Below, piece by piece: positions 4,653-63,300 of a stretch of 64,000 bases of DNA. The position numbers and the translations under genes were made by a program. The notes beneath the pieces are model-generated. The model was not told the DNA's origin, ran no database searches, and saw only the letters and a program-made list of their open reading frames with translations. Source of the DNA: Asterias amurensis. Taxonomy: Eukaryota; Echinodermata; Asteroidea; Forcipulatida; Asteriidae. The stretch is from contig NC_092651.1 of the NCBI RefSeq assembly GCF_032118995.1, positions 17,034,349 through 17,098,348 of the forward strand, read 5' to 3'. Within the stretch, counting starts at the first letter, position 1. Each line of letters opens with the position of its first letter.

Positions 4653-5123
4653 CTACCAACACCCACCTTCTTTGACTTTAATACATACTAAATATGTATC
4701 CTTGTCAATCTGGTTTGTTCTTTTATTCAAACCCTTACAACTAATTTTGTTTTTGGCTCCAAGGCAATAGTAGGTTTTGCTACAAAGGGCTACTATACCG
4801 TCCCCTTCCCACTCTACTTTAAAGAGACCCGGAGTTCTCTTATCGAAGTTGCGATGCTCAGCCATATCTTCACGGGGAAACCACTTGAACTTTTCTTGTT
4901 CAAACGCATGTCTTTTCTCGAGTCTAATTACTACATCTAGAGTTTTTCCTCTGATGGCGAGATAGGCGGAATCTGTGTCCATCTCACACATCTGAAAGTC
5001 AGAGGGGTCGATGAATTTAAGTAGAAAGTCGTAGTAGAATTCTAGCATGCGTAGTTTGGCATACTGGTACACGAAGAATCCAATTTGAATTGGGCGGTTC
5101 ATTCTTATGGAGGGCTTTGTCAT
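4653..5123 (-). pseudogene. Family-B DNA polymerase, palm-domain C-terminal piece (unit 1)
   Basis: This open stretch contains PIQIGFFVYQYAKLRMLEFYYDFL, the helix before polymerase motif C, then CEMDTDSAYLAI. The DTDS is the metal-binding motif C of family-B polymerases. It is followed by FKVEWEGDGIVALCSKTYY, a conserved block seen in the long polymerase-like proteins of cnidarian, fish and echinoderm mobile elements. The product would copy the element's DNA. It is a fossil piece, not a whole gene. It lies just downstream, on the same strand, of the small gene with the histone-type stem-loop. Confidence 0.8.
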
Positions 5124-5260
5124 ATCTACTTAATAAATCCCATCACCTATGTTATGTAACGCCCTCAAGTGTGGATTAGTTACAGCTTGCAAGGCATAAG
5201 TGTCCGTACAAATTTTAACATTTCTATGTTTTTCCTGATTAGTTTCGGTCTTTCCATGGT

Positions 5261-5276
5261 GGCTCTTAAAAGAGCC
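5261..5276 (-). terminator. Histone-type mRNA 3' stem-loop (unit 1)
   Basis: On the minus strand the 16 bases GGCTCTTTTAAGAGCC form a perfect 6-bp stem with a UUUA loop and are followed by ACCATG, as in replication-dependent histone mRNAs. A purine-rich GGAAAGA follows within about 10 nt, in the place of the U7-binding downstream element. It lies 32 nt past the end of the open frame at 5309-5797. Confidence 0.75.
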
Positions 5277-5308
5277 TGTTTTGGCTGTGAATGCCTAAAA
5301 ACAGGGCT

Positions 5309-5797
5309 TCAGCGACCCCCACTTCTTTGGGTACTCCCTCCTTTCACCCTCTCGTCTCTGACGTTTAGCGCCTTCATTGTGGGTATTGCGCCTATCAGCT
5401 GCTCGTCTTGAGGCTGGTTCTTGATGTTGGGATTTTTTTTGTATGTTGCTAGGGCACGTGCATGCCTGCACCAACCTGAGTTAGAGCCGGGCGAAGGATT
5501 GAGGGCGTCCCGAAGCTGCCTCCTTCTTTCGAAACCCTTTCGCATACTGTCCAGGTAATTGAAGTAAGCCTTGTTCGAAACAAAGGCTGCCTGGACCATT
5601 GTTTTCTCAATGGTGATATATTCAATGTTTTTGTCGTATTCTCCAGTCTTGATACCCAACGAAATCCTATGCAACTCATTGCAGCATTGGCGTTGGCCTT
5701 CTAGCAACACTACATGGTTAGTTTTGTCTGCGATATCATGGTTAAAATGATTGTATGCGGATACCCTCCAGCTCATGCAGTTACCGTCAGCGTCCAA
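5309..5797 (-). pseudogene. Small gene of unknown function carrying the stem-loop (unit 1 copy)
   Basis: The protein has a conserved DADGNC block near its start, then NHVVLLEGQRQCCNELHRIS, KTGEY, an aromatic FNYLDS region, KGFERRRQLRDALNPSPGS, and a polar tail. Two homologues occur in units 2 and 3 (11568-12164 and 16755-17126), which keep a more strongly basic tail. I do not recognise the family. DGNC resembles the active-site start of OTU-type cysteine proteases, but only four residues match, so that is a weak idea. The copy is a fossil and diverged from the other two. It is followed by a histone-type 3' stem-loop. Confidence 0.55.
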
Positions 5798-5933
5798 CGT
5801 TGCAAAATGAATGTAATGTACTATAGGGAATTGGTTAACTATACGCTCGTTTTCTTAAGCTTTCTTATTTCACTCTGACCTAAATTTTCTCAAGTCAGAT
5901 ACTACAATTTTATCCAATGCATCATCAAAATAT

Positions 5934-11234: not shown

Positions 11235-11486
11235 TTACATACATGTACTAGAACTAAGCACTACTTTACTGAAGGATACTTCCTCGGTTGGCTTATTATA
11301 AAACTTAGCAAATGTACTTGCATTTGACCAGTCGGCTGTTTTCAGAATTTCTTGGAGCTTAACCCCATGCGCAAAAGCTGCCGATGTAGCTGCATTGCGA
11401 AAACTATGAGCAGTGTAAACAGGGGGATCTATTCCCGCTGCACATAAAACCTGTGTATAACAGACAGTGATTAAATCTCTCTTTTG
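11235..11486 (-). pseudogene. Tyrosine recombinase, C-terminal piece (unit 2)
   Basis: An 84-codon stretch without Met encodes VYTAHSFRNAATSAAFAHGV, then ILKTADWSNASTFAKFYNKP. This is the C-terminal catalytic part of a tyrosine recombinase: HSFR carries the second catalytic Arg, W stands at the late His/Trp position, and the Tyr of FYNK is the likely nucleophile. Such enzymes integrate or excise circular DNA. The N-terminal part is not seen; the stem-loop of the upstream gene lies immediately 5'. The unit 3 copy is 16418-16669. Confidence 0.7.
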
Positions 11487-11496
11487 AAAATGTGGT

Positions 11497-11512
11497 GGCT
11501 CTTAAAAGAGCC
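11497..11512 (-). terminator. Histone-type mRNA 3' stem-loop (unit 2)
   Basis: The minus strand reads AAACC, GGCTCTTTTAAGAGCC, ACCACA: a perfect 6-bp stem, a UUUA loop, and canonical flanks including the ACCA cleavage context. CAAAAGAGAGA follows about 9 nt after the stem, like the echinoid histone downstream element CAAGAAAGA. It lies 55 nt after the stop of the gene at 11568-12164. Confidence 0.85.
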
Positions 11513-11567
11513 GGTTTTGCATGTCTAAAAATGCTTCGCCAACCCATACTAACCAATTCCTGGCTAA

Positions 11568-12164
11568 CTATATCCGTTCATCCTTGTCTCTCCTACGTTT
11601 AGCACCTTCTCGGTGTGCTTTGCGCCTTGCAGCTGCTCGTCTTGAGACGGGGTCTTGGGGTTGGGATCTTGCATGTTCTGCTAAGGCACGTACGTACTTT
11701 AACCAACCTTTTTTAGAGCCTGGCGAAGGGTTGAAGGCGCTGCGAATCTGCCTCCTTTTTTCGAAACCTTTTGGCAAACTCTCCGGGTAGTTGAAGTAAG
11801 CAGTGTTGGAAACAAATGCTGCCTGACCCATTGCCGACTCGATGGTTATGTAGTCGACGTCTTCTTCGTACTCCCCGGTCTTGATGGCCAACGAGATCCT
11901 ATGCAGTTCATTGCAGCGTTGACTTTGGCCTTCTAGCAGTGCTACATGGTTGGTTTTGTCTGCAATACTAAAGTTAAAACTGATGTATGCAAATACCGTC
12001 CAGCTCGTGCAGTTACCGTCAGCATTCATCGTTACAAAATGAATCTTAGACCCTGGGTACCCCCTCCTAAGTAACAAGCCACAACAATATGCACAGGAGA
12101 GTGTAATTGGCCAATGGAAATGGACCAATGAGAGGGAAGGGCTTAATGAGACAGAAATATGCAC
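11568..12164 (-). pseudogene. Small basic-tailed gene ending in a histone-type stem-loop (unit 2 copy)
   Basis: The conserved protein part begins near NADGNC (about 12030) and runs through NHVALLEGQSQRCNELHRIS, KTGEYEEDVDYITIE, AAFVSNTAYFNYPES, KGFEKRRQIRSAFNPSPGS and a strongly basic tail (RRAAARRKAHREGAKRRR) before a TAG. Residues upstream of that block read through the neighbouring MULE-like fragment and are probably not part of the gene. I do not recognise the family. The basic tail suggests nucleic-acid binding or nuclear targeting, which is inference. The histone-like 3' end suggests a non-polyadenylated, S-phase mRNA. It is a fossil within the virus-like unit. Confidence 0.55.
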
Positions 12165-13523: not shown

Positions 13524-14039
13524 TCACTGACAATCCCACATCTCCACAACGGTTAACCCAGTCTGGGTTTCTACAAAATGCTTCTTTTCCTGTGTTTTGG
13601 TGTACAACTCATGCATGGGTACGTTTAGTGTAGGATGGACAGTTTCCCCCTGGTAACAGATAGGACACCCGTGCCAGTAGCAACCGTTATACTCATAAAC
13701 GGTCTTTTCTTTGGCACATAAACCATCCTTTTTGAATTTCCCAGTAGCCAATTCACCCCCATTGTTGGCATGCTGTATATGTATGTCTAGCTGACGGTTT
13801 ACCCAGCGCAACCAGACAAGTGATCGCTTTGAGTGTTTGTCGCTGGGATTATAACCAGTGCGGGGAAGCACTGCTATTGTGTCCTTTGCAAGAAAATTCC
13901 TGCGAAAGACAAGATTACATGCAGATGCTATTGTGATCGTTTTCCGGAAGGGATCAACACCCTGATCATTAGCGTCAACTGCAGAAGTGTGCATGAACAT
14001 CTCACGAAATAGAACGCAACAGCGTTTCAATATATTCAC
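13524..14039 (-). pseudogene. Family-B DNA polymerase middle part with NGCYWHGC motif (unit 3)
   Basis: The piece contains SACNLVFRRNFL, a YNPSDKHSKRSLVWLRW block and VYEYNGCYWHGCPICY. The 'NGC(Y/F)WHGC..C' motif is, from memory, a hallmark of the long element-borne family-B polymerases of marine invertebrates and fish. It follows the exonuclease part on the same strand with a gap of fewer than 20 bases. This is a fossil piece. Confidence 0.65.
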
Positions 14040-14056
14040 GTCACTAATACAATAAA

Positions 14057-14746
14057 TTACGGTTCTTCTTGTAAATCAAAGACTCTGTTTTCACTTTTTT
14101 GTATGGCATACCACGCGTGAAATTCTTTTCTTCGTCCCTCTGACATTGAATCTGGGTCATAATATGAGACATCCGGTATAGGACCTACATATTTCTGATT
14201 ATCCCTCGTGTTGAAGAAATGAGGAAAGAAACCCTTTTTCAATTCAGTTAACGCAAATATTGAGGGCAACTTTGACAGAGCCATGGGTAAAAAACTCATT
14301 GAGTCTATTATCCTGCGCTTATACTGAGGTACATCAATGCACAGGACTTTAGCCCCGGTGTATATTACAGATGGAACACACGCATTCTTAAACAGAAATT
14401 CAAGAAGAAAATATGAGTCGTACCTTTTGGCATTATGTGCAATTGCTATGGAGTTGTCAGTTTCCTTGGATTGAAACAACCATGCACAGAAGCTACTCTG
14501 TGTTTTATCCCCCTTGAAAATTTTCATGGAAACACAATGTTTGCATTTATATCCAGCAGGTTGACCCGCACACAATTCACACACCATATCGGCTACACAT
14601 AAATTAGGTACATGAGTCCCACCATCCTGAGTACATTCAAAATCAAAAAATATATACCTGAGTGGTGTTTTAGTTTTCTTGTTCTTGCTTGAATTTAGGG
14701 CTTGAGCCCTCTCATCAGTGTCATCCATTTCATCATGCGTAAACAT
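14057..14746 (-). pseudogene. Family-B DNA polymerase 3'-5' exonuclease part (unit 3)
   Basis: FFDFECTQD is the Exo I motif with the catalytic Asp-x-Glu. HNAKRYDSYFLLEF is Exo II with its Asn and Asp. CELCAGQPAGYKCKHC between them is a CxxC insertion seen in this polymerase family. IDSMSFLPMALSKLPSIF and GFFPHFFNT follow, as in protein-primed type polymerases. The activity would be proofreading during replication of the element. It is a fossil; the unit 2 copy keeps only a fragment of this part. Confidence 0.75.
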
Positions 14747-14781
14747 ATGCTGTTGAGAAACTGCAGGAACATTCTAAGTTT

Positions 14782-16417: not shown

Positions 16418-16669
16418 TTACATACATGTACTAGAACTAAGCACGACTTTACTGAAGGATACTTCCTCGGTTGGCTTATTATAAAACTTAGCAAATGTAC
16501 TTGCATTTGACCAGTCGGCTGTTTTCAGAATTTCTTGGAGCTTAACCCCAAGCGCAAAAGCTGCCGATGTAGCTGCATTGCGAAAACTATGAGCAGTGTA
16601 AACAGAGGGATCTATTCCTGCTGCACATAAAACCTGTGTATAACAGACAGTGATTAAATCTCTCTTTTG
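16418..16669 (-). pseudogene. Tyrosine recombinase, C-terminal piece (unit 3)
   Basis: Eighty-four codons, the same as 11235-11486, with HSFR, the late Trp and the FYNK Tyr all present. Only scattered base differences separate the copies. Confidence 0.7.
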
Positions 16670-16679
16670 AAAATGTGGT

Positions 16680-16695
16680 GGCTCTTAAAAGAGCC
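16680..16695 (-). terminator. Histone-type mRNA 3' stem-loop (unit 3)
   Basis: GGCTCTTTTAAGAGCC followed by ACCACA and, downstream, CAAAAGAGAGA, exactly as in unit 2. It lies 59 nt past the stop of the frame at 16755-17126. Confidence 0.85.
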
Positions 16696-16754: not shown

Positions 16755-17126
16755 CTATATCCGTTCATCCTCTTCTCTCCTACGTTTAGCACCTTCTCTG
16801 TGTGCTTTGCGCCTCGCAGCTGCTCGTCTTGAGACGGGGTCTTGGGGTTGGAATCTTCCATGTGCTTCTAAGGCACGTACGTACTTTACCCAACCTGATT
16901 TAGAGCCTGGCGAAGGGTTGAAGGCGCTGCGAATCTGCCTCCTTTTTTCGAAACCTTTTGGCAAACTCTCCGGGTAGTTGAAGTAAGCAGTGTTGGAAAC
17001 AAATGCTGCCTGACCCATTGCCGACTCGATGGTTATGTAGTCGACGTCTTCTTCGTACTCCCCGGTCTTGATGGCCAATGAGATCCTATGCAGTTCATTG
17101 CAGCGTTGACTTTGGCCTTCTAGCAA
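16755..17126 (-). pseudogene. Small basic-tailed gene ending in a histone-type stem-loop (unit 3 copy)
   Basis: This copy shares LEGQSQRCNELHRIS, KTGEYEEDVDYITIE, FNYPES, KGFEKRRQIRSAFNPSPGS and the basic RRAAARRKAHREGAKRRR tail with unit 2. The DGNC region lies just upstream, near 17200. Function is unknown; see 11568-12164. It is a fossil. Confidence 0.55.
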
Positions 17127-17344
17127 TCCTACATGGTTGTTTTTGTCTGCAATACTAAAGTTAAAACTGATGTATGCAAATACCGTTCAGCTCGTGCAGT
17201 TACCGCCAGCATCCATCGTTACAAAATGAATCTTAGACCCCGGGTACTCCCTCTTAAGTAACAAGCCATAACAATATGCACAGGAGAGCGTAATTGGCCA
17301 ATGGAAATGGACCAATGAGAGGGAAGGGCTTAATGAGACAGAAA

Positions 17345-60300: not shown

Positions 60301-63300
60301 TAAGTTGTGATACACGAAGTGTGGGCCTTGGACAATACTGTTTACTGAAAGTGTCCAATGGCTTTAAAGAGTCCTATGTAGGACTAGTCCTAAGTTAGGA
60401 CTATCTTTGTGAAATTGACCCCTGCCACTTGGACTTATGCTATATCAGAAATGGCGGCTACAGATGGCTCTAACTGCTGTTAAGTCTGTTGGTAAGGACA
60501 TCCTATTTACTTCAATACATGATGAAGCAGCAATCAAGCCATAGCCATAGCCATAGTCTGAGCGGCTTATTTGGACAAGGGCTCATTTAGACCTGCAGCA
60601 GCTGAACACAACCTCTAGATTTAGGCGTTTTGAAACTTGGAAATCGGGAAAGTCTCAACAAACAAAAACTGAGCAGTCGGCGTGTATGCATTTATACAGC
60701 TACCATGCAGACCTTGAATTTTGTCTTTGAAAAAGCAAGGCCATTGACATTTTGCAAAGGGCATTTCCAATGGGAAAAATCAAGTCTATGGAAGTCTTTC
60801 AAAGGGCAAAGAAGGCAAAGATCAGCCGTTGATTTCACCAAACACATCCTAACTTAGGATTAATCTTAGGACCCAAGACGTAGGATGCATTGAACCCATC
60901 CTATGTCAAGAAGGGTTACTCGTCCTAACTCGGGATAGGATTAATCCTAGCGTTTCTCAAAATCGGCCGCAGGGCATGTAACTCCAGTCTTGCCTTGATC
61001 CATAGAAAAGGCATGCAGCTTATGTCTGTTTAAAATGAGAGGGTGGTGCCTGGCAAAGCAAGACTTCATACTTTTATTTCAATTCAATTCATAAAGTTTC
61101 AATGGCACAGCTGGGATCCTGAACTAACGAAATCAGCTGAACATATTAAAGGATTTGGGCACTTTTTTTAACACAAAACATAATGTCCAAAGATTTACAT
61201 TAAACTTATACAGCTTGAAGATAATTATGATAGAAAGCTTCCCTTAAAATATTACTTGCTGAGATGCTGTATTTGTTGAGAAATGAGAAGAGGAAAAAAA
61301 GTCCCCCCAAAATAGTTTATGTCTCACTCTCAGTGAGACGAAAATTATATTGCATGTAAAAACGTATTAACCAGGTATGGTATGTTATGGTAAAATACCA
61401 TAACTGGTTAATCTGTTTGTACACGCTAAAACTGAGACTAAAATAATTTTTGTGGCATTGTTTTACTCATTTCACAAAAAATACAGCACCTCAGTAAGTA
61501 ATATTTTAAGGGAAGCTTTCTACTATCATTATCTTCAAACCGTCTAAGTTTAATGTAAATCTGTGGACATTGTGTAAAAAATACCCAGACCCTTTAACAA
61601 CAGGACAGATGGAAAATATCTTACCTAGAAATGCCTGTGGCCAGTAAGTAACTCTCTTCATCAGTGGGTAGATGACGATTGGTAGAACAGCAACAAATCC
61701 AAGAGCTATACTGTATACAAAGACAGGACGATAAGGAAATCTATTTAACACATAATTTTCCAGAGACATAAATTCTACAAGCAAGTATTGATCAGAGGAT
61801 GACTCTTCCAGGAACAAAATAAGAAGAAACTATAAGTGAGTAGTAAACTTGCGGGTACAACCATGTGTAAATCTCTTTTGAGCGAGTGTTGGCTCTGAGA
61901 CCAAACTGGCTCTTTTCAGAGCCAATACTCACTCAAAAGAGATTAACACATGGTTGTACCCGCAAGTTTACTATTTATTTTTAGTTTCTTCTTATTTCTC
62001 TACACCATGCAAAGCTTCAAATAATACTTGCAGGAACAAAATGTTTGATATGACATAATAAATATTGCGGTGCTAAACCAGACAAAGACTTGTAGGCCAG
62101 CAAGAGAATCTCTTATACAATACGTTCATTGATTGACAGCCAGTGTAATTCTTCAAGTATTGGAGAGAATGACATACCTGTATGGATTAAGAGTCAGCAA
62201 TATCCCCAAGGCAACGCTGAGTTGAGCTGCTAGGAAGACTAGGGCCTGTCTAGGGCTGATGTCACCTGCAGCTATGGGTCTTGAGCGTGTCCGTTCAACC
62301 TGTACAAAATCAAATATAATCATTCCGATAATTGTGGAACTGATATGTGTCAAAATGATGTGCATCATTGACCAATTAGTTCATTTAAAGCCATTATACA
62401 GTTATACACTTTCGAAACAGAATTTTTTTTAAAAGTTTTTACAAATTTACAAATAACTTACAGGGTTTACAGAAGGTAATGGTGAAAGACTCCTCTTGAA
62501 ATATTATGTCATGAAATGCTTTACTTTTTGAGACAACATTAAAACAATTATCAATTCTCGCTAACGAGAATTACAGATTTTTTTGTATGTCATGACACGG
62601 CGAAACGTGCGGAAACAAGGTATGGGTTTTCCCGTTATTTTCTCCCGACGGCCGATTGAGCCTAATTTTTCACAGGTTTGTTATTTTATATATAAGTTGT
62701 GATACACGAAGTGTGGGACTTGGACAATACTGTTTACCGAAAGGGTCCAATGGCTTGTATATCGAGCCTCGAATTAATCCACGTTACCCATAGCAATGAC
62801 CGATCCATTAGGCTCCACCCAGGACGCACGTGTGGAAGAACACATGAGCCTCTCCAAGGGACTTGGACAATACTGTTTACCGAAAGGGTCCAATGGCTTG
62901 TATATCGAGCCTCGAATTAATCCACGTTACCCATAGCAATGACCGATCCATTAGGCTCCACCCAGGACGCACGTGTGGAAGAACACATGAGCCTCTCCAA
63001 TGCCATTCTGCACAACTCTGCCGCGCGCCAAGCTATTGCGCACGCAAGTCAGACTTGTTGTTGCGCAATGGGTTGTGATGGGTCAATATGCAATGGGGCG
63101 GAGCTAATGGATCAGTTCCTATTGCTGCCCTTTGCAAAGGTCCAACAATACAAATTTTCATTTTCTTCATAGAGGTGCCCCTACCAGGAAAATTTCTGTG
63201 TCCATTCATCAAGGGTGGAAGTTCAACGTCTGTAACATAGGTAAATTCGACGACCGATTGAATTCAAATTTTCACAGGTTTGTTATTTTATGCATATGTT

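Follow-up and report, generated by a model that had tools for sequence, protein, structure and literature searches.

We consider it probable that the small gene of a once-active Polinton/Maverick-type element in the genome of Asterias amurensis carries a complete replication-dependent histone 3' end, which the element kept and used, and that the transposase genes of Mutator-like (MULE) transposons in the same genome do likewise. Histone 3' ends of this kind are generally regarded as a signal of replication-dependent histone genes. Here, the signal, its match to the histone genes of the host, its place behind the stop codon and its linkage to element genes can all be read directly from the DNA, and the sequence gives good support to histone-type 3' processing of the genes that carry it. 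Taken singly, histone 3' ends and such elements are known; their union appears to be new, and it suggests that selfish DNA may have borrowed the pathway by which the cell makes the messages of its DNA replication phase.

The window, that is the whole stretch of 64,000 nucleotides that was analysed, belongs to contig C4 of a genome of 491,506,623 bases in 23 contigs. The histone stem-loop has the form GGYYCU-UYUN-AGRRCC, with a stem of 6 bp and a loop of 4 bases. A pattern scan of the window found GGCTCTTTTAAGAGCC three times without mismatch on the minus strand, at 11497-11512 (unit 2), 16680-16695 (unit 3) and 5261-5276 (unit 1), and, as a fourth pattern site, a single plus-strand occurrence of GGCTCTTTTCAGAGCC. 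Only 0.01 such sites are expected per shuffle, none of 100 shuffles reached four, and a second-order Markov control produced none in 100 simulations. The stem of unit 2 is GGCTCT paired with AGAGCC, its loop is TTTA and ACCACA follows; the 6-bp stem and 4-base loop of a histone-type 3' end were also found with the Rfam model RF00032 (Histone3). With this covariance model, units 2 and 3 score 40.3 bits (E 2.1e-8), above the gathering score of 34 bits, and the chance expectation is about zero, which confirms on this contig the canonical histone stem-loop and ACCACA that an earlier note had reported for unit 2. Two matches lie below the gathering score, unit 1 (30.7 bits, E 7.9e-5) and a fourth stem-loop at 61903-61948 on the plus strand (28.5 bits), placed within a fold-back repeat (61834-61981) of an abundant family.

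A downstream element-like CAAAAGAGAGA is present on the minus strand at 11476-11486 in unit 2 and at 16659-16669 in unit 3; in unit 2 it starts 11 nt past the stem. The same arrangement had been claimed for units 1 and 3. It is complete in unit 3, whereas unit 1 has kept the stem-loop and ACCA and lacks the downstream element, DNA-polymerase coding sequence following instead. Nor can the three units be taken as separate instances: the pieces of units 2 and 3 are 95 to 99% identical, with a dS of 0.026 that marks a recent duplication, and these units were therefore counted as one case, while unit 1 is diverged from them (dS 0.64 to 0.70).

How close is this signal to that of the host itself? 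The H2A, H2B, H3 and H4 genes on contig C12, which were recognised from sequence, have their stem-loops 29 to 32 nt past the stop codon. In all 13 host histone 3' ends that were measured (14 were read), the purine run begins between +10 and +13 after the stem. It begins at +12 in units 2 and 3 and in a further copy of the small gene on contig C14, and at +12, +12 and +11 in MULE subfamilies A, B and C, so that host and elements have the same type of downstream element; it is found in this form in units 2 and 3, in the C14 copy and in MULE A to C, and is missing from unit 1. The distance from stop codon to stem-loop is short as well, with 12 nt in the C14 copy and 28, 26 and 35 nt in MULE A, B and C, respectively. 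Moreover, CAAAAGAGAGAT is common to a host H1 gene and the small gene of the element, and the loop TCTC, characteristic of MULE subfamily C, occurs in a host H1 gene too. The likeness to histone 3' ends that had been put forward is thereby extended to those of the host, which match in stem, loop, flank, spacing and type of downstream element. The replication-dependent histone mRNA 3' end (RF00032; SLBP/U7 snRNP) resembles the present one in its stem, loop, ACCA flank, short stop distance and downstream element; it differs in that the signal there stands at histone genes, and here at a Polinton gene, at MULE transposases and at others, where processing is predicted. A search of the genome for U7 snRNA with RF00066 gave no match, and the controls of this search were silent as well.

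In the established pathway for replication-dependent histone 3' ends, SLBP, the U7 snRNP and CPSF73 take part (PMC1924863). If the small gene used it while the element was active, host SLBP would bind the stem-loop of its pre-mRNA and U7 snRNP the downstream element; cleavage would follow ACCA(C) and no poly(A) would be added, so that production and use of the message would fall mainly in the period of host DNA replication, when the polymerase-bearing element needs it. We infer this SLBP/U7 processing, the lack of poly(A) and the S-phase timing of these messages, as well as the benefit to the element, from this established pathway.

In unit 2, the small gene is a frame of 153 codons (11568-12029, minus strand) with a basic C-terminal tail. 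The frame of unit 3 (16755-17216, minus) is broken by a stop, and the copy in unit 1 (5309-5797, minus) has 73 to 79% DNA identity to units 2 and 3. Within the span 11235-12164 of the earlier note, the segment 11235-11450 is a separate dispersed repeat outside the gene. The distance of 55 nt from stop codon to stem-loop applies to the shortened frame in unit 2, and not to the frame end shared with relatives, ..KYGLxKHF and a stop, which in the C14 copy is separated from the stem-loop by 12 nt. Neither Pfam nor PHROGs has a family that matches the small protein. Among about 5.8 billion protein sequences, a search in which hits must share short words returned only four relatives, on short contigs and none named histone, and a profile search added none to these four; a search of the viral contigs gave no relative of the gene either. 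As had been supposed, the gene before the stem-loop is not a histone or a fragment of a histone cluster, judging by the absence of a Pfam family and of any relative so named. In two of the relatives, P0002 and P0004, the frames seem to continue through the stem-loop region, and the stem of P0004, as deduced from the protein, is changed. A structure model of the small protein was of low confidence (pLDDT 57.6) and was left out of the reasoning.

Units 2 and 3 share with unit 1 a block (window 5257-5812) that extends from a cap-like ATTCATTTTG to the stem-loop and ACCA. In unit 2, the cap-site-like ATTCATTTTG lies at 12035-12044 (minus), at the left border of the block, and resembles the CATTC that host histone genes have close to their starts. 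The span 5257-5812 is also that of a mature histone-type mRNA. Given these two borders, the block might be a retrocopy, namely a copied mature message of histone type. At a dS near 0.67, however, it may be that the flanks can no longer be aligned or have been rearranged, and in unit 1 the match of the polymerase frame to its relatives extends into the 3' arm, so that a junction at a microhomology is an equally good explanation.

What the window contains is best explained as decayed copies of a Polinton/Maverick-type element. Pieces of DNA polymerase B are found on the minus strand at 14057-14773 (PF03175, E 3.3e-9), at 13524-14075 (PF03175, E 1.9e-4, below the Pfam cut-off) and at 4653-5129. 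The last contains DTDSAY, which we take to be the DNA polymerase B motif, and has 1024 relatives at E <= 0.001, some of them named, in Diadema setosum and Apostichopus japonicus. The viral contigs gave no relative of the polymerase pieces, and the window frames that were scanned contained no integrase. On C14, the small gene is divergent to an open frame of at least 1297 codons in which the polymerase pieces are contained, and the same locus (L067) has an integrase frame with an rve domain (E 3.3e-9) and a chromodomain (Chromo, E 2.2e-7). Copies of a motif of 41 to 48 bases are present there in inverted orientation at 2307380-2307623 and 2322690-2323964, about 16.5 kb apart; those of the second group lie partly before and partly behind the small gene, which is therefore near one end of the element. 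A type B DNA polymerase, seen as PF03175 in the window and in the long frame on C14, thus goes with a retroviral-type integrase on C14. For capsid, ATPase and protease genes, several long frames of this locus gave no Pfam match and one gave no PDB match. The element is like the adintovirus-like Polinton/Maverick group in its PolB, its rve integrase with chromodomain and its inverted motif copies on both sides; it is set apart by a gene near its end with a histone-type 3' end and by capsid genes that lack Pfam confirmation. The assignment of the signal-bearing gene to a DNA-polymerase-bearing element, first proposed from the window, is upheld by this independent C14 locus with its PolB frame, its integrase with rve and chromodomain, and its inverted motif arrays. 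Between the inverted motif copies there is also a frame with a death domain (L067:442-1389; PF00531, E 8.3e-7).

The question arises as to whether the small gene is at home in this element. It might be a host gene, already equipped with a histone-type 3' end when a Polinton took it up or overran it, and its rarity fits such an origin: we found four good copies in the genome, the three of the window and the one on C14, and a remnant on C10 whose stem is mismatched. A nanos-like gene on C5, with the signal 27 nt past its stop codon, offers a precedent of a non-histone host gene. However, all four good copies adjoin polymerase pieces, the C14 copy lies next to the polymerase and amid the motif copies of one end, and the genome search gave no uninterrupted copy of the gene away from the element. 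We therefore regard a host origin as unlikely. The remnant on C10 (L019:4776-5265) has an inverted repeat of about 55 bases on its flanks, and the downstream element forms part of this repeat.

A DNA query of the region retrieved, besides the gene copies, many short matches that covered only the stem-loop and downstream element. Transposase-like sequence was present in the surroundings of three of them (L026, L027 and L028), and in L026 and L028 the end of its frame is 28 nt away from the stem-loop that follows. A search with the MULE protein gave 35 matches in the genome, and 30 loci were fetched. Among the ten best matches (L037-L046), nine have the stem-loop and downstream element 26 to 35 nt past the stop codon; L044 has lost its stem-loop. 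Three subfamilies can be distinguished: A (three copies) has the stem-loop 28 nt past the stop; B (L042) has it at 26 nt, with GGTCCT and AGGACC enclosing TTTC, which amounts to two compensatory pair changes; and C (five copies) at 35 nt, with the loop TCTC. Both B and C are about 55% identical to A. The copies of subfamily C, located on C4 (two), C7, C15 and C17, are 94 to 98% identical over pieces of 1.5 to 3.6 kb that include the stem-loop, and the shared sequence continues past it, so that the stem-loop is internal to a mobile element. In the broader scan of 30 MULE loci, the stem-loop was found in 13 (12 places, L047 and L052 being the same) and was absent from 17, many of which are fragments; two others of the 17, L049 and L050, are long-framed and distant (34 and 32% identical). 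Two frames, of 630 and 649 codons, match the MULE domain PF10551 above cut-off (E 1.4e-10 and 1.6e-9), together with weak matches, below cut-off, to PHD in both and to FLYWCH in one. Such elements have the PF10551 transposase in common with Mutator-like transposons at large, and differ from them by a transposase gene that ends in a histone stem-loop and downstream element. The signal had been ascribed to a DNA-polymerase-bearing element only, which proved too narrow, since it is also present in MULE transposons and in repeats of this genome.

Was the signal kept because it served the elements? By the method of Nei and Gojobori, over 125 codons, unit 1 differs from units 2 and 3 and the C14 copy with a dS of 0.64 to 0.70 and a dN/dS of 0.30 to 0.35, and units 2 and 3 differ from C14 with a dS of 0.24 and a dN/dS of 0.23 to 0.31. 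Between units 2 and 3, dN/dS is about 1.5 at a dS of 0.026. These ratios indicate that the small protein was constrained during the active period of the element, and it seems to have been drifting since the last duplication. The stem-loop and ACCA are identical at 20 of 20 bases between unit 1 and units 2, 3 and C14, for which the neutral chance, from the neutral identity implied by dS, is 5e-6 to 1.3e-5. In an alignment of 30 stem-loops (22 distinct), all cells pair, and changes are confined to pairs 3 and 4 and always affect both sides; four cells in two pairs are changed, and slid controls show none. Most rows were retrieved with patterns or models biased towards paired stems, which inflates the pairing, and further pair types did not outnumber those of the shuffles (500 of 500 were as high). 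MULE B is the cleanest case of covariation, because its locus was found by protein similarity. The changes follow the known histone pattern.

Alternatively, the ancestor of each element may have picked up a piece of histone 3' end that had no role. The flanks of the small gene and of the MULEs do resemble host histone 3' flanks past the stem-loop, so the signal probably descends from a captured histone gene end, whichever reading is preferred; moreover, the signal is absent from most of the distant MULE matches. Such passive capture agrees poorly with a stem-loop placed 12 to 35 nt past the stop codon in unrelated genes, with the compensatory stem changes of MULE B, and with the identity of unit 1 over 20 of 20 bases despite a dS of about 0.67. 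We consider it improbable, and, because of this position, these compensatory changes and this conservation, we favour a signal that was kept for use.

Behind the gene in unit 2, and in unit 3 too, lies a tyrosine-recombinase-like repeat piece (11235-11450, minus; PF00589, E 0.002, below cut-off), which begins 47 nt past the stem-loop. It is present alone at 10 other places in the genome and in two pieces at an eleventh. Since this piece is a dispersed repeat in its own right, an integron-like cassette was considered and rejected. A single protein read from the recombinase-like frame through the downstream element was rejected as well, because other copies start at the piece's own border.

A hairpin that works as DNA and not as RNA, whether within a terminal inverted repeat or as an integron-attC-like site for a recombinase, would account for the recombinase-like piece behind units 2 and 3, and for a downstream element that lies inside an inverted repeat in the C10 remnant and also in the fold-back repeat of the window. 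We tend to exclude this hypothesis as very improbable, given that the recombinase piece is a repeat of its own that begins 47 nt past the stem-loop, that the stem-loop changes follow the histone pattern, and that further shared sequence comes after the stem-loops of subfamily C. Finally, a resemblance by chance is refuted for units 2 and 3, where the expectation is near zero, E is 2.1e-8 and the downstream element stands at host spacing, and has next to no probability overall, even though an exact 19-base match does occur in a long frame of a phage-like contig. Exact-pattern scans of the viral contigs had yielded nine loci, eight of them without a Histone3 match at the Rfam gathering score; the ninth, in this GC-rich contig (L001, 21.3 bits), was taken as chance.

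If Polintons and MULEs use histone 3' ends, the expression of selfish DNA would be coupled directly to host DNA replication and to early embryos. The search for transposon transcripts would then have to change, because RNA-seq of poly(A)-selected material would miss such messages. Among the top-ranked open-licence papers, no title or abstract opening reported a transposon or Polinton with a histone stem-loop, which is weak evidence of absence, and neither 'histone' nor 'stem-loop' is present in the accessible portion of PMC11071308.

The signal has other carriers in this genome. In a genome scan with RF00032, the top 75 of 111,810 first-look candidates were scored, and 74 passed the cut-off; 1 of 14 control genomes gave a match, below cut-off. 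The sequence was read at 52 of the 75 matches (at 1 of 24 for an array on C9), and classes were assigned by resemblance, partly by eye. On this basis, the 75 consist of 24 matches in the C9 tandem array, 22 dispersed repeats without a recognised coding frame, 13 histone genes, 8 MULE genes, 4 members of a zinc-finger-like family on C10, 3 copies of the small gene and 1 nanos gene. One repeat type had 1634 first-look candidates, 40 of which were scored.

The nanos gene (C5:25320500-25321430; L107, L096; zf-nanos, E 8.1e-18), whose stem-loop is followed by a host-type downstream element, would be a germline regulator with a histone-type 3' end. The array on C9 (17750544-17918224) is a tandem one, mostly of 5.4-kb period, with one histone stem-loop per unit; in the one unit read, no histone frame was found in the 1.25 kb before the stem-loop. 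Between 8.66 and 10.83 Mb on C10 (L074, L076, L070, L103), a family that ends in ..HKFKKP, or fragments of it, has zinc-finger-like cysteines and a terminal histone stem-loop, and gave no Pfam match. In the abundant repeat family to which the fold-back repeat of the window belongs (L029; L073-L104), the stem-loop and downstream element are near the end, often in inverted pairs, with the stem variant GGTTCT/AGAACC and variants of the loop. Upstream of its stem-loop, this family has a CTGATCGAAACGTC-type motif, which presumably recalls hammerhead ribozymes.
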